Positions 23,130 through 42,883 of a stretch of DNA of 64,000 nucleotides are shown here, one piece after another (position 1 is the stretch's first letter; each line of letters begins with the position of its first letter). Source of the DNA: Ignavibacteria bacterium (GTDB lineage: Bacteria; Bacteroidota; Ignavibacteria; Kapaibacteriales; UBA4661); assembly GCA_013298775.1 (NCBI GenBank), contig JAAFIV010000017.1, forward strand, positions 1-64,000. The letters are read 5' to 3'. Under the pieces are notes generated by a model. That model was not told the origin of the DNA and made no database searches. It saw nothing but the letters and a program-made list of their open reading frames with translations. Position numbers and translations under genes: made by a program.

Positions 23130-26039
23130 TTAGAACGTGATATTTACACGAGCATACAAGAAACGTCCACCAACGCCCCACGGTGCGCCAGTTGCGGGGT
23201 AAACGAATACTGAACCTGTCGTGCCTGTGTCTGTGTTTGCTGGAACGCCCGCAGGAAGCGGCTGTCCGCCAAGTGCAGCGGGAATTGTTGGCTGCCATTT
23301 TATCCATTCTTGCGGCATCACGTCGAAGAGATTGTTTGAGCCAATTGCAATGCGAATGCCTTTAACAATCTCATAGTTAATATCAAGGTCGGTAACAAAC
23401 AAGCCGCTTGTTACTTGGTCGAGCGCGGGTTGTCCGATGAGGTTCACCACTTTCACTTCACCAAAGCGTTGTGTGCGGAGCATTACGCCAAAATTACCAA
23501 CGTTGTAATTTGCCGACAACTGAAGATTGGTACGGGGTTGCCCTTCCAAGAAACGTACACGCTCGCCACGGTCGAAGAGAATGTTTGCGGGGTCGGTTGT
23601 GCCTGTCAAGCCTGTCAATTCAGGCGGATTTCCTGCTTGACTGACAATCGTATTTTCATTCCAGTTAAATCCTGCTGTCAAGCGCAATTTTCCTGCTTCT
23701 GCCAAATCAAACGCATAGCGTACAATTACGTCCACACCTTGTGTTTGTGTGTTTAAGTAGTTCGTAAAGAAGCGTCCGCCACCCACACCAACGACGTTTA
23801 CTGATTCCAGTCGGCGAATAACATCTGTGCCAATAAAATTACCTGAAAGCGTGATACGGTCTCGGATGGCGATGTTGTAGTAATCTGCGCTGACGGAGAG
23901 ATTTTCAATCATATCAAAGGTAAGACCTGCGCTGAGATTCACTGAGGTTTCTGGCTTGAGTGGTTTCGCGCCGAATGCTTTTGCGGCATCGCTGGATACG
24001 GGGAAGGTGCTGATGTCGTACGGCAAACCATTGATAAAGTTTGTTGCGGTCGAGCGGAAATATGATTGTTGCAAGGAAGGAGCGCGGAAGCCTGTCGAAG
24101 CAGCCGCACGAAGTGCCAAGCCTGGCACAAACTCATAGCGCGTAGAGAATTTTCCTGTAAACAATGCGCCAAAGTCACTGTAATTCTCAAAGCGTCCTGC
24201 AAGCCCGATGGTAAAACGCTCAAAGGGGTCGGTTTCAATATCCAAATATGCCGAAAGGTTGGTGCGGGTTTGATTTGTGACATCCGACGGACGGAAGCCT
24301 GGAAATACCTGCGCTCCAGCTGCGGGAACGCCACCTGCACCAGCTTGCGTTGCTGGAACACGATTCACGGTCGGGATAATTGTTGTTGCAATGGTGGAGG
24401 CTGGAATGCGTACTGTTATGCGGGTATTGCCAATGCCGCTCAGTACCGTATCACGTGCTGGACCAGCAGCAATACGAAGACCTTGCGAGCCAACGTTACC
24501 GGGCTGATTTATCCACGAAGCGGTATCACCAGCAGCAATTTGGTAATTTTCAATGCGATATTCTGCACCAAACGCCACGTTGAGCGGCTTTGCAAAGCCA
24601 ATATCAAAACCTTTGCTTACGTCCAAGTTGAACGATGTTTGATTATAGCCCAACGTTCCAGCATCAAATTGATTATTGATTGGGCTTGCCGCGCCAAGTG
24701 AAGCATTCCAGCTATTGCGAACATTGAAATTGAACGAATTATTGCCATACACCGCCGAAAGGTCATAGTTCCAGCCATCCAAAGCACCTTTCACGCCAGC
24801 ACCAGCAGAAGCGTCATTTATCCGCGCAAAAATTTGTGGTAAAAATCCATTCGGGAAGCGGGCAACATCATTGCGAGCATCACGTGGAGTACGGAAGAAA
24901 CCATAGCTTTCCGACTGACGATAGGTGTAACCACCGAACAGATACAAAAATGTTTGTTCGCCAAGCGTAAAGCTAGAATTGAGGAAACCGCCAATATCTG
25001 TCGTGCGAGAATCTCCGTTCCAGTGATTGATGCGGCGCGGGTCGTCTAATGACCAATCGCCTGTGGCTACGTCACCTGCCGCGCCTGTGCCTGGCATCAT
25101 ACGGCGAATGTCGCGTCCAGTGCGGTTGGTAGAATCACGAAAGCGATACGTACCGCCGATGTGAATAAAACTACCATTGCCAAGGTCAATACCGTAATTT
25201 ACACCAGCATCTACCACTGTACCGTCATTGCGCGTTGTGCGTCCGCCCGTAACGTTTGCGCTGAAGCCAGCATCTTTGCGTAAAATGACGTTGATTACGC
25301 CCGCAATAGCGTCTGAGCCGTATTGCGCTGCCGCACCGTCGCGCAAAACCTCGATGCGGTCAATCATATTTGCTGGAATAGCGTTCAAATCTACGCCCGC
25401 CGAACCACGTCCGACCGTGCCATTGACGTTCACGAGCGAACCGACGTGGCGGCGTTTGCCATTCACCAAAACGAGTGTTTGGTCAGGTCCCAAGCCGCGA
25501 ATCGTTGCAGGGCGCACAGCGTCTGTACCGTCGGAGATAGAAGGGCGCGGGAAGTTGAAGGACGGCACCATCATTTGAATCATCTGATTCGTTTCCGTTA
25601 AGCCGTTCTGACGCATTTCTGCTGCTGGAACAATGTCAATCGGTACAGAAGATTCAATAACGGTGCGGTCTGCGCGGCGCGTACCGACAACGACAATCTC
25701 ACTCATCCCAACCAAATCTTCTTCCATTGATAAATCTAATGTTTGATTATCACCTGCCGCAACAGTAACGGTGCGCTTCAAGGTTTTGTAGAGTGGAAAA
25801 CTTACGATAAGCTGGTGCGTTCCCGCAGGAAGCGACAGCGTGTACGTGCCGTCTGCCTTTGCATTCGCACCCGTGCGTGCTGAGGGAACATTGATTTTTG
25901 CCGAAAGTGCCTCTTTCGATTTTTTATCCGAAACTTTGCCCGTAATGGTAGCTTTCTGGGCAAACGCCGCACTACTCGCCAATACCGCAAAAAGCAGCAT
26001 CACAACTGGTGCGAAAACACGTTGTTGAAGTGTGGTCAT
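23130..26039 (-). CDS. TonB-dependent outer-membrane receptor with CarboxypepD-like domain
   Basis: 969 residues. Signal peptide (about 1-28, ending SSAAFAQ), a carboxypeptidase-regulatory-like beta domain (ITGKVSDKKSKEALSAKINV, about 30-110), then the plug (RGLGPDQTLVLVNGKRRH and RIEVLRDGAAAQYGSDAIAG) and a 22-strand barrel ending in terminal Phe (LYARVNITF). It imports a large ligand such as a siderophore, cobalamin or oligosaccharide with TonB energy. The barrel and plug resemble iron-complex receptors more than SusC, and no SusD-type gene is near. The start at 26039 opens the signal peptide. Substrate unknown. Confidence 0.9.
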   Translation of the reverse strand: MTTLQQRVFAPVVMLLFAVLASSAAFAQKATITGKVSDKKSKEALSAKINVPSARTGANAKADGTYTLSLPAGTHQLIVSFPLYKTLKRTVTVAAGDNQTLDLSMEEDLVGMSEIVVVGTRRADRTVIESSVPIDIVPAAEMRQNGLTETNQMIQMMVPSFNFPRPSISDGTDAVRPATIRGLGPDQTLVLVNGKRRHVGSLVNVNGTVGRGSAGVDLNAIPANMIDRIEVLRDGAAAQYGSDAIAGVINVILRKDAGFSANVTGGRTTRNDGTVVDAGVNYGIDLGNGSFIHIGGTYRFRDSTNRTGRDIRRMMPGTGAAGDVATGDWSLDDPRRINHWNGDSRTTDIGGFLNSSFTLGEQTFLYLFGGYTYRQSESYGFFRTPRDARNDVARFPNGFLPQIFARINDASAGAGVKGALDGWNYDLSAVYGNNSFNFNVRNSWNASLGAASPINNQFDAGTLGYNQTSFNLDVSKGFDIGFAKPLNVAFGAEYRIENYQIAAGDTASWINQPGNVGSQGLRIAAGPARDTVLSGIGNTRITVRIPASTIATTIIPTVNRVPATQAGAGGVPAAGAQVFPGFRPSDVTNQTRTNLSAYLDIETDPFERFTIGLAGRFENYSDFGALFTGKFSTRYEFVPGLALRAAASTGFRAPSLQQSYFRSTATNFINGLPYDISTFPVSSDAAKAFGAKPLKPETSVNLSAGLTFDMIENLSVSADYYNIAIRDRITLSGNFIGTDVIRRLESVNVVGVGGGRFFTNYLNTQTQGVDVIVRYAFDLAEAGKLRLTAGFNWNENTIVSQAGNPPELTGLTGTTDPANILFDRGERVRFLEGQPRTNLQLSANYNVGNFGVMLRTQRFGEVKVVNLIGQPALDQVTSGLFVTDLDINYEIVKGIRIAIGSNNLFDVMPQEWIKWQPTIPAALGGQPLPAGVPANTDTGTTGSVFVYPATGAPWGVGGRFLYARVNITF

Positions 26040-26186
26040 ACAATACCTCGTTGGTGTGAAGGTGATGAAAAAATGAATCAGAGAATCTGAATTGCACATT
26101 TTAATGCTTGATGATGAAGCGGCATGAAGATACTCACAAAATAGCACAGATGCAAGTATTCACGCCTCGCGCTGGAAAATTTATGC

Positions 26187-31892: not shown

Positions 31893-33794
31893 TTAGCGCA
31901 CAATCATCACGCGCTTGATGGCGGTTTCGCCTTTGTCGGTGGAAAGGGCGAGCAAGTACACCCCTATATTGCGCCCCGTGAAATCAAGCGGCAATTCATG
32001 TTCCCCTGCGGGCAGAACAGGCGTAGGCTCAAGGATTGCAAGGCGTTCACCGTTCAAATTATGTAGGGTCAGCGTGATACTTCGTGCTTCTTGCAGCGTA
32101 AAGCGCACCGTTGCTTGAATGTTTGCTGGATTTGGATAGAGATTCGTAATTTTCAAAACGCCATCGCACGACCGCCACGAATCGAAATAGCCTGCAACTG
32201 CCTTCTTTTCTTCTTCGGTGGGGATTTCGCACGTTGTGGCGTACTTCTTTGCCGTTTCCACTTCGCGCTGCAAGCCCACACGATACCGCTCTGGCAAAAG
32301 CGCGATAAACTCTGGCGCGGGGTCGTACCAAAGCAAGTATTCATCGCCTTCGGAACGTTTTTGCGCTGATTGCACACGAATACCGATGAGCTTGCTGATG
32401 TCGGATTTTTCTTGCTCGAATTGATGTTCAAGTTTTTTCGCTTGCTCTGGAGTTACAAGTTTATCTCTGTACGAACTCCACACTTTTTCATAATTGGCGA
32501 CAACCTGCGCAGAATCTAGCTTCTGTGCTTTTGCTTGCTGCCGTGCAGAATCGGCTTTTGCATGAATTTCCCTCAACACCTGTAAATGCGGTGCATCGGA
32601 AACATCAATCGAATAACGAAAATTATGTCCGTCCGTAACTAAGCGAGGGAAGATATGATGCCGAATTCGCTCAATTTTTTCATGCTCTTGCTGCTGTATA
32701 GAAACAATACTCACCAATCCTGTTTTGCTGATGTTGTGAATGCTATCAGAAATCAAATCTCGCAACGCTTGTTTACCGTTTTCCCACTGAGTAAGCTCCC
32801 ATCTATCAGCAAGCGCCTCTTTCCCTTGCTTGCGAAGAGTGCGAATATACTCCTTAAAAACGCTGTCTGGCATGAGTTTCGGCGTAATGGCAGATTTGAT
32901 GCTGGTTTTCATTTGGTACAAATTCTCATGTGCTTTATCCCAGCCATAAATCCGCAGAATATCCGCCGTATCGCGCTCCACACCTATCTTCCGCAGCTCT
33001 TCATCGCTCAAGGTCAGCATTTGCGCCTTTTCGATACGATTTTTCCCTGTTCGCTCATTCAAACGAAAGTGAAACGGCACACTCACCCAACATGCAACAG
33101 GCTTACCACCTCGCGTAGCGGGTTTCCAATGCGCTGCAAACATTGCCAAAAGTGCCGCAGAATCAAGCACCTTGCCATCGGAATATTCCACAAAAGAGCG
33201 CGGTGAAACTTTGCCATTTGGCAACACCAAACCCCGCACTGTTACTTGCCCTTCGATGCCGAGCCTCTTGTATTCTTCGGGATAATGCGTATGCTTACTA
33301 AGTTCGCTTGCATCCACAAATGGTTCGTTGTCAATCGCTACAACATCGTAGGGCGCGGGAAGGCTGTCAGTGGCTTGGTTACTTGGTTTTTTCGTTACTT
33401 GATTACTCAAGGCTTGGTGCTTGGCTGCTTGGGGCTTCGTTGTTTGAGGTTTGGCTGTTTGTGGCTGTTGTTGAAAGGATTGTGAATGAGATTGTTGAGA
33501 GCGAATAACGCCAGAAGGCTCATTGTTCCTTGTATTTGGGAATATTATGAAAAATGCTATAAGTGCGGCAGTGAGCATGGAAAACATAATCCAACCTTTT
33601 GGGAAAAGAAATGGAGAAAGCATTGAGAAAAATCGCCCCACACTACGAGGAAAGACGCGCTTTCTGCGACGGTGAGCATCGTCGCTGAAAGAGCGCGTTG
33701 CGAGCTTCTCGGCAAGAATGCTGCTCACGTCATTCTTTTGGAGAGGTGCTTGTTCGCGGCGGGCGCGGTCGAAGTATTTGTCAAGATTCGTCAT
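31893..33794 (-). CDS. Fusion: anti-sigma-like N-terminus, membrane helix, TonB C-terminal domain, T9SS sorting domain
   Basis: 633 residues. Residues 1-66 are cytosolic-looking and open NLDKYFDRARREQAPLQKND, like anti-sigma proteins of Bacteroidetes ECF loci. Residues 67-85 form one membrane helix (GWIMFSMLTAALIAFFIIF). A Gln/Pro/Lys-rich linker follows, then a TonB_C-type domain (YPEEYKRLGIEGQVTVRGLV...AHWKPATRGGKPV, about 155-245). A long helical region with an alkaline-type Cys-x32-Cys pair near the end precedes a type A T9SS sorting domain (LYPNPANIQATVRF...GVYLLALSTDKGETAIKRV, about 550-633). The gene follows the ECF sigma gene by 25 bases (or overlaps it if started at 33830). It may be the sigma factor's membrane-bound partner. 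Confidence 0.75.
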   Translation of the reverse strand: MTNLDKYFDRARREQAPLQKNDVSSILAEKLATRSFSDDAHRRRKRVFPRSVGRFFSMLSPFLFPKGWIMFSMLTAALIAFFIIFPNTRNNEPSGVIRSQQSHSQSFQQQPQTAKPQTTKPQAAKHQALSNQVTKKPSNQATDSLPAPYDVVAIDNEPFVDASELSKHTHYPEEYKRLGIEGQVTVRGLVLPNGKVSPRSFVEYSDGKVLDSAALLAMFAAHWKPATRGGKPVACWVSVPFHFRLNERTGKNRIEKAQMLTLSDEELRKIGVERDTADILRIYGWDKAHENLYQMKTSIKSAITPKLMPDSVFKEYIRTLRKQGKEALADRWELTQWENGKQALRDLISDSIHNISKTGLVSIVSIQQQEHEKIERIRHHIFPRLVTDGHNFRYSIDVSDAPHLQVLREIHAKADSARQQAKAQKLDSAQVVANYEKVWSSYRDKLVTPEQAKKLEHQFEQEKSDISKLIGIRVQSAQKRSEGDEYLLWYDPAPEFIALLPERYRVGLQREVETAKKYATTCEIPTEEEKKAVAGYFDSWRSCDGVLKITNLYPNPANIQATVRFTLQEARSITLTLHNLNGERLAILEPTPVLPAGEHELPLDFTGRNIGVYLLALSTDKGETAIKRVMIVR

Positions 33795-33819
33795 TGGTAC
33801 TTGGTTACTTGGTGCTTGG

Positions 33820-34353
33820 TCATTCGTCATTGGTAAGGCGTTTTTTTAGTTGCTCGCGAGCGCGGGTAACACGAGATTTTACGCCAGAGACCGTCCCGCC
33901 TTGTATCTGGCGGATTTCTTCCAGCGAAAGCCCTGCAATTTCAAACAGCGTGATTGCTTCACGCTGTGCTTTGGGGAGTTTTGCTATTGCTTCGTGCAAA
34001 AGAGCAACATCGGCGGAAACGTCGGGCAAAGCCGCATCGGAAGTGCGTTCTGTGACCTTTGTTTCATTGAAAATGCCCCAGAATTTTTGCCGTCGCTTAC
34101 GCTCGTACACAATATTTCGCGCAATCGAAAATAGCCACGATGCTGATGCTTGCTCGTTTTTCAGCGTATCTAATTTTTCAAATGCTCGCAAAAGTACATC
34201 GCCCACAATATCCCGTGCTTCCTCACGGTTGCGCGTGAGGGCATGAACAAAGCGTCCAATGGCTTCGACATGCGGCTCTACAAGTGCGCAAAAGCGAGCG
34301 TGTTGGTTGTTGTCTGCAATCCTAGTGATGGTATGAACGGGTGTTTCGGTCAT
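33820..34353 (-). CDS. ECF (group 4) RNA polymerase sigma factor
   Basis: 177 residues. Sigma-2 region: FVHALTRNREEARDIVGDVLLRAFEKLD and WLFSIARNIVYERKRR. Sigma-4 region: LPKAQREAITLFEIAGLSLEEI with a helix-turn-helix ending VSGVKSRVTRAREQLKKRL. It directs RNA polymerase to a specific stress or cell-surface regulon. The next gene downstream carries an anti-sigma-like cytosolic segment and a membrane helix, so it probably controls this factor. Confidence 0.92.
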   Translation of the reverse strand: MTETPVHTITRIADNNQHARFCALVEPHVEAIGRFVHALTRNREEARDIVGDVLLRAFEKLDTLKNEQASASWLFSIARNIVYERKRRQKFWGIFNETKVTERTSDAALPDVSADVALLHEAIAKLPKAQREAITLFEIAGLSLEEIRQIQGGTVSGVKSRVTRAREQLKKRLTNDE

Positions 34354-34406
34354 GTATCCAAGCGTTCACGGGGCGATTGATGGAAGATTTGTTTTGTTGT
34401 TTGTGT

Positions 34407-34505
34407 AGGACTTTCGCAAAACGCGCTAGTCATACCGACGTAGGTCGGTATCCATCCCGTGTCCAGGTTTCCGATAGATTCCAACATACGTCGGAATGAC
34501 AACGT
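34407..34505. repeat. Dispersed palindromic repeat, GACGTAGGTCGG type
   Basis: Contains GTAGGACTTTCGCAAAACGC followed by CATACCGACGTAGGTCGGTATCC and a second inverted segment GATTCCAACATACGTCGGAATG. The left end resembles the end of the element at 8506-8642 while its palindrome is different. No coding sequence. Confidence 0.6.
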
Positions 34506-34724
34506 TTATGGATGGTTTGTGAATCTTCTATTGCGTTTAGAAGGAAGATGCACAAGCTCCGAAAAAAGTTGCATGCAGAAATTGTTTTTATACGATGTCC
34601 TTTGATACAGAGATTTTTTTTGGAAGAAATAAAAAAATCAGTTATTTTAGCTATTCTTGCGCAGAATTTCTGTCAAGACCAAACTTCGGTGATTTCTTTA
34701 CAACTCGAAAGCATTTTTGCTCCT

Positions 34725-40619: not shown

Positions 40620-41891
40620 TCAGGATAATTCCTGTATGCGTTGCCGAAAATATCCTTGTTCAATGGCGGATTGCGTCAGCTTTTGTGCGCGTTCAAAGGA
40701 TTCTCGTGCAGATGCGGCATTCCCACTGCGTTTCAAGAATTCACCGCGTGTAGCATGGTATAGATACACCTTCCCCAATGCGGCTTCTAGTGCCGACAAC
40801 TCCTGCAATGCTCGTTCCTCGCCGTACAAATAGGAGCGCACTATCACGCGATTGAGCTGTGCAATGGGACTAGGAGCAAGTGCGAGCAGGACGGAGTAGA
40901 GCTTTTCAATCTCGCGCCAATCAATCGCCTCAAAGGACGGAGCAAGCGCGTAATGAGCCGCTATGCCCGCTTCCAAGTGATAACGTGAAATTTCTTCGCC
41001 TTGCGCAGAAGCCGCTAAAAACCGTGTTCCTTCCGCAATTTTCGTACCATTCCAGAGCGACGCATGCTGTTTTGATAAAATAACTAATTCGCCACTTTCT
41101 TTCAATCGCGCATCAAATCTGGAGGATTGGAAGAGCATGAGTGCGAACAGTGCATTTGTTGAAGGGGAATTGGTGAGCGGATGTTCCGTCAGAAAGCGGC
41201 ATAAACGCTGGGCTTCATCGCAAACATCGTGGCGAATAAGTAAATCTGGATGCGAAGAATTATAGCCTTCATTGAACAGAAGATAAATCATCTGTAACAC
41301 AGCATTCATACGGCTTGGAAGCTCGCTTTCGCGTGGAAATTCCACTGCAATATTGCTTTCTCGCACGCGCTCCTTTGCCCGATAAAGACGCTTTTCAATC
41401 GTATCTTTGCCCGTCAAAAAAGCATTGGCAATCTCTTGAACGCTCAGTCCGCATAAGGTTTTGAGGGCAAGTGTGATTTGCATTTCCTCAGAAAGTGCGG
41501 GATGACAGCATGCAAAGAGCATTTGCAGCGTACTGTCTTCGATGGTTTTCGTGGTAAAGACTTCTTCTAAAGCCCGTGATTGGTCGTCTTCAAGGTCTTG
41601 CTCGGTGAGATACGTGATTTCACCTTGCATGGAGGTAAAATGTTGCTTGCGCCGCACATAATCTAAGGCTTTGTTCTTCGCCACGCGGTACAGCCATGCC
41701 GTCGGATTCGCCGGAACGCCGCGTTGCCAGTGCTGCAAGGCGGCAATCATTGTCTCTTGGACAATATCTTCAGCAATCTGCACATTGCGAAAGCCAAAGT
41801 GTTTTGTGAGGGTAGCAGTCATTTTCCCCGCTTCATGGCGGAAGAGGTGCGCTGTGAGTGTGTCGTGGTGCGGTGTTTGTGCTTCGGTCAT
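40620..41891 (-). CDS. ECF sigma factor with C-terminal SnoaL-free, TPR-like extension (ECF42 type)
   Basis: 423 residues. The N-terminal sigma-2 (AEDIVQETMIAALQHWQRG, WLYRVAKNKALDYVRRK) and sigma-4 (ALKTLCGLSVQEIANAFLTG) regions are followed by a DUF6596-type domain (RMNAVLQMIYLLFNEGYNSS) and helical repeats (YHLEAGIAAHYALAP). This is the ECF42 layout, in which the extension replaces an anti-sigma factor. Such genes usually neighbour a DGPF/YCII-domain gene, but none is present. Start MTEAQTPHH at 41891. An orphan sugar permease gene ends 36 bases upstream. Confidence 0.88.
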   Translation of the reverse strand: MTEAQTPHHDTLTAHLFRHEAGKMTATLTKHFGFRNVQIAEDIVQETMIAALQHWQRGVPANPTAWLYRVAKNKALDYVRRKQHFTSMQGEITYLTEQDLEDDQSRALEEVFTTKTIEDSTLQMLFACCHPALSEEMQITLALKTLCGLSVQEIANAFLTGKDTIEKRLYRAKERVRESNIAVEFPRESELPSRMNAVLQMIYLLFNEGYNSSHPDLLIRHDVCDEAQRLCRFLTEHPLTNSPSTNALFALMLFQSSRFDARLKESGELVILSKQHASLWNGTKIAEGTRFLAASAQGEEISRYHLEAGIAAHYALAPSFEAIDWREIEKLYSVLLALAPSPIAQLNRVIVRSYLYGEERALQELSALEAALGKVYLYHATRGEFLKRSGNAASARESFERAQKLTQSAIEQGYFRQRIQELS

Positions 41892-41926
41892 GGTGAGTAT
41901 TTTTAAACAAGATTCAGCAAATCGCT

Positions 41927-42883
41927 TTACTTCGAGCGGAGAAGCCGCATTTGGAGCAGCGAAAAACAAAGAATAATCGCAAAAACAATGTAGGCAAGCG
42001 CGGAGGCGTAGCCCATATCGAACTTATCAAAAGCGTGTTGGTACACAAGGTAAATAAGCGTCGAAGTGCTGCCAAGCGGACCGCCACGCGTCATAATATA
42101 AATTTCGACAAAAATTTGAAACGAGCGAATGGTATTGATAACCAGCACAAATAGGAGCGTTGGGCGCATAAGCGGCAACGTGATGCGCCAAAATGTTGCC
42201 CACGCATTCGCGCCCGCAAGCTCGGCTGCTTCGTACATATCGCGGGGAATCGTTTGCAAAGCAGCGAGGAAAATCACCATATAATAGCCAGTCGCGATGC
42301 CGATGTCCATTGCCATGATTGCTGGTAGCGCAGTAGAAAGCTCTTGCAACAAGCCGCGTGCAGGGAAGGGAATACCAAGCATGGTGCATAAACTCGCAAT
42401 GTAGCCATTGGCAGCATACAAGCGCGAAAAGACGAGCGCGAGGACAATAAGCGACGTAACCGAAGGCAGGAAAAATGCAGCGCGAAAAAAGCCCTGCAAA
42501 CGAGGAATACTGCTCACTCCAACCGCCAACACCAGCGCAAATACAGTGGTGAGGGGAATCGTCCCTGCGCTGAAAATTGCCGTATTTTTCAGTGCTAACC
42601 AGAAGAAGCTATCGTGGAGGATGTGCGCGTAGTTCTGAAGCCCTATCCACGTGGTTTCATTGCGCAAGGTTTCGTATTTGGTGAAACTGAGATAGAGCGC
42701 GTAGGCAAGCGGATACACCCAAAAAACACTGAGAACAATTACCCAAGGAGCTAGGAATAACGCTGTGTTCAGGTGCTGCCCGCGTTGGGCATTCTTCCAA
42801 ATATTTCCCCAAAGAGTTCCCAAAAGAGTTCCCAAAAAACTCGGTGGCGTTTGGCGTGGAGCAGGCGAAGGAGAAGGATTCAT
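41927..42883 (-). CDS. Sugar ABC transporter permease (MalF/UgpA type), orphan
   Basis: 318 residues with six membrane helices and the EAA loop EAAELAGANAWATFWRITLP that contacts the ATPase. NTALFLAPWVIVLSVFWVYPL at the first helix is typical of carbohydrate importers of the MalF/UgpA family. The partner MalG-type permease, the ATPase and the binding protein are all absent here, so the transporter must be completed from elsewhere in the genome or be non-functional. It starts 10 bases after the SRPBCC gene. Confidence 0.88.
   Translation of the reverse strand: MNPSPSPAPRQTPPSFLGTLLGTLWGNIWKNAQRGQHLNTALFLAPWVIVLSVFWVYPLAYALYLSFTKYETLRNETTWIGLQNYAHILHDSFFWLALKNTAIFSAGTIPLTTVFALVLAVGVSSIPRLQGFFRAAFFLPSVTSLIVLALVFSRLYAANGYIASLCTMLGIPFPARGLLQELSTALPAIMAMDIGIATGYYMVIFLAALQTIPRDMYEAAELAGANAWATFWRITLPLMRPTLLFVLVINTIRSFQIFVEIYIMTRGGPLGSTSTLIYLVYQHAFDKFDMGYASALAYIVFAIILCFSLLQMRLLRSK

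Follow-up and report, generated by a model that had tools for sequence, protein, structure and literature searches.

A membrane-anchored putative anti-sigma factor with a C-terminal type IX sorting domain, encoded beside an ECF sigma factor in an Ignavibacteria bacterium

Two overlapping genes in the window (the whole 64,000-nucleotide stretch of an Ignavibacteria bacterium contig that was analysed) encode an ECF sigma factor and a 645-aa protein that combines a single inner-membrane helix with a C-terminal sorting domain of the type IX secretion system (T9SS); the two are very probably a sigma/anti-sigma pair. Our best reading, to which we give even odds, is that the larger protein resembles the Dma anti-sigma factors of Bacteroides but has a T9SS tail at its outer end where those have a barrel, and that the tail is engaged, the envelope bridged, and the sigma factor thereby released. 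By sequence comparison, the pairing with an ECF gene, the topology, the tail family, and the exchange of tails for probable barrel ends in the partners of close sigma paralogues are established; we infer sigma binding, T9SS engagement, bridging, the signal, proteolysis, autoregulation, and the regulon. In the open-access literature, no published account of a T9SS tail on an anti-sigma factor was found. For a little-studied order, the findings suggest a sensor that would connect the cell surface with gene control by way of the T9SS.

The gene pair and its products

The features of the locus are collected in Table 1. The sigma gene and its partner, both on the minus strand, overlap by 11 nt, and in a Pfam search the sigma protein matched Sigma70_r2 (E 5e-10) and Sigma70_r4_2 (E 5e-12). 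An alternative start of the partner at M13 (33794) is possible, and the orthologue in genome G002 begins there. Orthologues in five other genomes of the genus have the same architecture, and a published Kapaibacterium contig (RDXM01000119) carries a copy that is 91% identical. An assembly or gene-fusion artefact was ruled out by these five orthologues together with relatives in 17 of the 27 genera of the order.

Table 1. Features of the operon, with window coordinates and the basis of each assignment
Feature	Position	Strand	Basis
ECF sigma factor gene, 177 aa	33820..34353	(-)	Pfam Sigma70_r2/r4_2, NCBIfam sigma70-ECF
Membrane-anchored putative anti-sigma factor with T9SS tail, 645 aa	31893..33830	(-)	ORF, overlap with sigma gene, 65 relatives
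Cytosolic N-terminal segment aa 1-78, putative sigma-binding	33597..33830	(-)	positive-inside topology; low-confidence model
Single membrane helix aa 79-97	33540..33596	(-)	hydropathy 2.27
Low-complexity linker aa 98-158	33357..33539	(-)	composition
TonB_C domain aa 180-257, lineage-specific, 7/65 members	33060..33293	(-)	PF03544 E 5e-17
Motif LTLSDEELRKIGV aa 272-284, start of shared ectodomain	32979..33017	(-)	pattern search, about half of members
Variable ectodomain, predicted helical, aa 285-470	32421..32978	(-)	conservation and model
A2 region aa 471-560 (LWYxPTPEF-LPERYR ... YFDxWRSxxG), family signature beside tail	32151..32420	(-)	profile A2
T9SS type A sorting domain aa 564-645	31896..32141	(-)	PF18962, TIGR04183, beta-sandwich model
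Conserved promoter-like block TGCAACTTTT-N11-TGCATCTT of operon	34545..34573	(-)	six genus members

The segment at aa 79-97 is the only strong hydrophobic helix of the 645-aa protein and also its first hydrophobic stretch. It is preceded by RRRKR, and thus the N-terminus should face the cytosol; it also lies far too deep in the protein to belong to a cleavable Sec signal peptide. Judged by hydropathy, charge, and composition, the helix is oriented N-inside and is followed by a long disordered tether, of which the linker at aa 98-158 is the least conserved segment of the protein within the genus (27-69%). Two helices, at aa 15-25 and 32-44, are predicted in the N-terminal segment from a low-confidence model: AlphaFold gave the full-length protein a pLDDT of 37 with three sequences in the input, and this model was used for predicted helices only. 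No Pfam family and no anti-sigma family matched the N-terminal segment, and neither FecR nor RsgI_N was matched by Pfam in the 645-aa protein at E-values of up to 10. The TonB_C domain is internal and full-length, and it is related to solved TonB; it does not end the protein.

At the C-terminus, Por_Secre_tail was matched over aa 564-643 with 27.4 bits (cut-off 27), and TIGR04183 with 26.7 bits (cut-off 23). The AlphaFold model of a fragment comprising A2 and the tail reached a pLDDT of 62-78 in most of the tail only. A structure search with that model matched many Ig-like sandwiches, a result at most consistent with a sorting domain; the PorU C-terminal domain was found with Z 8.0, RemZ at rank 24, and the RgpB CTD at rank 40, none of them above unrelated folds. 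Within the genus, A2 is 81-100% identical. Between species of the genus, a near-identical copy in G005 aside, A2 and the tail are 78-89% identical, the N-terminus 50-69%, and the middle 40-49%; A2 and the tail are co-conserved as one block, at 78-100% in the genus versus 40-49% (once 97%) for the middle.

The sequence-only reading had described this order of domains next to an ECF gene. Its coordinates and reading frames were right, and the C-terminal domain that it assigned passes both profile models. The puzzle that it raised, a sorting domain on an uncleaved inner-membrane anchor, still holds. Gene order, topology, and comparison favor the anti-sigma-like, cytosolic N-terminus that it proposed, but a Pfam domain match there is lacking.

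A family of ECF-adjacent proteins in the order

In a protein search, aa 450-645 recurred in many ECF-adjacent proteins of the order. A profile, A2, was then made of the 90 residues that precede the sorting domain, leaving the tail out. This profile matched in 30 of the 61 genomes of the order, representing 17 of its 27 genera, with up to seven matches per genome; across 395 genomes drawn from the phylum, only 18 had matches, and 16 of those were from the same order. Sixty-five A2 proteins were examined with their loci. The borderline score of the sorting domain in the 645-aa protein is thin by itself, and a chance match was considered; it is ruled out because 61 of these 65 relatives, which were found without that domain, match PF18962 (best E 8e-20). 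TIGR04183 matched in 59 of the 65.

Most A2 genes (56/65) come immediately after an ECF sigma gene and share its strand, mostly within ~70 nt of it or overlapping it. There are 28 sigma region 4 matches in this genome of 5.2 Mb, and a downstream ECF neighbor would thus rarely occur by chance. At L077, one gene separates the ECF sigma gene from the A2 gene; L094 and L119 are loci cut by contig ends, and no sigma gene was seen at the L069 locus. L081 / L160 (G024:C130) is a single 840-aa polypeptide in which sigma regions 2 and 4 are joined to a membrane helix, a PPIase domain, and a T9SS tail that is weak. Four members (L102, L108, L111, and L126) have a likely Sec signal peptide at their start and no ECF neighbor; the module of A2 and tail is therefore also found in ordinary-looking cargo. 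Over the 65 proteins, the anchor goes with the ECF gene and the signal peptide goes with its absence. The genes of L102, L111, and L126 lie directly upstream of a VIT-like gene, VIT being confirmed by Pfam for L102 and L126.

In a typical member, the cytosolic N-terminus is short and is followed by a helix near aa 45-100, a polar low-complexity linker, a variable middle, A2, and the tail. The bias of K+R residues predicts the N-inside orientation in 47 of 57 members, and, where the LGI motif was found, its median distance from the helix is 96 aa of polar low-complexity linker. A search of relatives for this order of domains beside ECF genes, which the sequence-only reading had put forward as a check, thus had a strongly positive outcome. 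That reading had over-weighted the TonB-type domain: TonB_C occurs in only seven of the 65 A2 proteins, and it was rejected as a core element and taken to be a local, lineage-specific insertion.

Anchored tails and ordinary T9SS tails

SprA is present in this genome (SprA_N, E 6e-34), the presence of a T9SS being judged from SprA alone, and 107 sorting-domain matches were found. SprA was also found in 60 of the 61 genomes of the order, and because the T9SS is thus nearly universal, its co-occurrence with the A2 family is uninformative. Known T9SS substrates carry a Sec signal peptide (PMC12618676).

Fifty-eight anchored tails were set against 49 ordinary ones from this genome. R583 is found in 45 of the anchored tails and in none of the ordinary ones, and E635 in 49 and five, respectively. 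At position 640, Arg is present in 49 anchored versus 10 ordinary tails, and Lys in five anchored versus 18 ordinary tails. Type A tails have a near-invariant Lys near the C-terminus (PMC10994853); the residue of the 645-aa protein that aligns to it is R640, with K639 beside it, and both Mirolase (8qb1) and 5jvk have a Lys aligned to the R640 position of the anchored tails. The fold motifs of genuine tails (PNP, G594, G623, and Y625) are all kept in the anchored tails, some of which (G060:C12 and G053:C1, for example) are among the best PF18962 matches. By their residues, the anchored tails are a distinct, specialised subclass of sorting domain, and the differences at R583, E635, and R640 mean that they may have left the export route. 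Either outcome is informative. Known T9SS substrates enter the periplasm by means of a signal peptide that is cleaved off; a conserved, ECF-paired family that retains its inner-membrane anchor would be the first sign either of a T9SS taking tethered clients or of a sorting domain reused for sensing in the periplasm.

The sigma clade and the outer ends of its partners

A sigma profile applied to 14 genomes gave one clade scoring >130 bits versus <95 bits for other ECFs. The clade comprises 71 rows, set apart from other ECFs at 100. The partner's end is a T9SS tail in 55 rows, a probable barrel in 10, and another domain in six, the other ends being described as transglycosylase, TPR, WD40-like, or short. 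These partners have their N-terminal pattern and helix in common and differ in their ends. On the sigma tree, the type of end changed at least nine times, and the types are clustered (mean of 15.2 changes when shuffled). The barrel ends were judged by eye, from repeated strands and a terminal aromatic residue, and Pfam matches to them were sub-threshold only; two partners with a probable outer-membrane beta-barrel and terminal aromatic residue, L156 and L158, belong to this genome. That a single sigma clade has partners with either barrel ends or tails is an argument for the tail likewise serving to reach the outer membrane. The sequence-only reading had offered bridging of the envelope as one possibility, and this gains support from the barrel-like partner ends of the close sigma paralogues and from the Dma proteins (PMC13088901); we infer the bridging itself, and that the 645-aa protein spans both membranes seems to us an evenly balanced proposition.

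The ECF partners with probable barrel ends (L156, L158, L165-L171, and L173) are candidate Dma-type anti-sigma factors of the order. In L172, also an ECF partner, the ectodomain is a lytic transglycosylase (SLT; E 3e-15). A further single-helix protein that this genome encodes beside an ECF gene, L159 (G000:C67, 934-2046), ends in TonB_C and is without a T9SS tail.

Comparison with known systems

RsgI-type anti-sigma factors are found in clostridia, which are one-membrane cells, and have an external sensing end. The present protein would be similar in joining an anti-sigma anchor to an external sensing end, but no RsgI_N domain was found in it. Like ordinary T9SS type A cargo, it has a C-terminal sorting domain, with SprA in the genome; unlike such cargo, it has an uncleaved inner-membrane helix and the R583/E635/R640 signature. 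It also differs from TonB energy transducers, as its TonB_C is internal (aa 180-257 of 645) and not C-terminal. The first paper on the Dma anti-sigma factors is reportedly that of Pardue (PNAS, 2024). In Bacteroides, Dma proteins begin with an anti-sigma domain, which is followed by a helix, a disordered tether, and, at the C-terminus, a barrel, and an ECF21 sigma factor is encoded adjacent to them; in Dma3, the sigma factor is fused to the anti-sigma factor (PMC13088901). The likeness extends to the ECF sigma gene next door, the N-terminal segment, the one membrane helix, the long disordered tether, and a C-terminus directed, here presumably, to the outer membrane, and a natural sigma fusion is found on both sides (Dma3 and L081). 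However, the A2 family ends in a PF18962 sorting domain and not in a beta-barrel, and it has the conserved A2 ectodomain; the present lineage has in addition a TonB_C insertion. Because the barrel is absent, we do not class the A2 family as Dma.

In Porphyromonas gingivalis, PorA is a surface tail-bearing protein that acts upstream of the ECF sigma factor SigP and has been proposed to reflect T9SS activity (PMC7712824). As in the PorA-PorXY-SigP system of that species, a T9SS-tail protein would here feed an ECF sigma factor (PMC7712824, PMC4800418). PorA, however, is made with a Sec signal, stands apart as a protein of the surface, and works through a two-component system, whereas in the present case the presumed anti-sigma factor bears the tail itself.

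Proposed mechanism and alternative explanations

In the mechanism we propose, the N-terminus of the 645-aa protein would hold the adjacent ECF sigma factor in the cytosol, and the one uncleaved helix would keep the protein in the inner membrane, with the long tether and conserved ectodomain crossing the periplasm to the outer membrane. Recognition of the tail by the T9SS is somewhat probable; the C-terminal domain would then be taken as a client by the translocon or carrier (SprA/PorV), so that both membranes would be bridged, much as by the Dma barrel. A trigger at the outer end, which might be a ligand bound by the exposed ectodomain, tail cleavage, or the stalling or pulling of the tail, would free the sigma factor, probably by proteolysis, and the freed sigma factor would transcribe its own operon. 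More tentatively, and at less than even odds, the T9SS may act as a signalling wire: the tail of the anchored anti-sigma factor would be engaged by the translocon and carrier, the secretion motor or sortase would act on the tethered client, and its state or a surface ligand would set the ECF sigma factor, tails and barrels being interchangeable ends of one envelope-spanning class. Envelope-spanning anti-sigma factors, described so far in Bacteroidota with barrel ends, would thereby gain a second, interchangeable outer end. R583, E635, and R640, together with the single-copy promoter, are discrete testable features.

The tail could instead be a co-opted Ig-like periplasmic domain, the protein being an ordinary single-pass anti-sigma factor whose A2 and tail sense in the periplasm and never meet the T9SS. 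The specificity of R583 and E635 for anchored tails would fit such a sensor, as would the conservation of the tail with A2 as one block and the fit of their model to many Ig-like folds, and T9SS clients anchored in the inner membrane are not known. We nevertheless judge it rather unlikely: anchored tails keep all the fold motifs of genuine tails, some of them rank among the best-scoring sorting domains of their own genomes, A2 and the tail are also found on Sec-signal proteins, and in sister partners it is apparently a barrel that extends to the outer membrane. It is improbable, in our view, that a periplasmic cut lets the T9SS export the ectodomain and tail to the surface and also starts regulated proteolysis that releases the sigma factor, such that export and signalling coincide. 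Neither a cleavage site nor a dedicated protease gene was identified, and release would leave the probable outer-membrane barrels of the paralogues' partners unexplained, even though the type A tail is complete and at the very C-terminus, the long unstructured linkers (the helix and the LGI motif being a median of 96 aa apart) suit cleavage, and the Sec-signal versions of the ectodomain look exported.

PorA upstream of SigP (PMC7712824) is a precedent for a reporter of T9SS function, in which the tail would occupy the translocon during export and a failure of binding or pulling would relieve the sigma factor. However, up to seven A2 matches per genome with variable ectodomains suggest several different signals, and the exact promoter block is present at its own operon only and at no T9SS genes; this explanation seems quite improbable. 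Lastly, TonB_C might be the working part, coupling the protein to a TonB-dependent outer-membrane receptor in cell-surface signalling. The domain is full-length (E 5e-17) and related to solved TonB, a receptor gene of that kind lies at 23130-26147, and the anti-sigma-like L159 of this genome ends in TonB_C, but with only seven of 65 members having the domain, we consider this very improbable.

Promoter and neighboring genes

Upstream of the sigma gene, TGCAACTTTT-N10/11-TGCATCTTCC, which resembles an ECF-type promoter, is common to six genus members. The exact motif is present as one copy per genome, at its own operon, in the six genus genomes with the system, and zero copies were found in two genus genomes without it; this single-copy promoter suggests autoregulation. 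A relaxed search for the motif with three mismatches gave matches at the level of the control (15 versus 14 in G000), and no further targets are named. Across the order, TGYAACNTT was found upstream of 20 of 55 sigma genes, compared with 1.0 expected.

Outside the operon, the TonB-dependent receptor gene at 23130-26147 (-) lies a few kilobases from the gene of the TonB_C-bearing protein, and the gene at 40620-41969 (-) is for another sigma factor, whose C-terminus carries a long extension (DUF6596). A repeated element occupies 34390-34510, between the promoter block and the start codon of the sigma gene, and has ten further partial matches that are 72-93% identical; the 91% identical relative L031 is without this element, and its promoter is ~130 bp closer.
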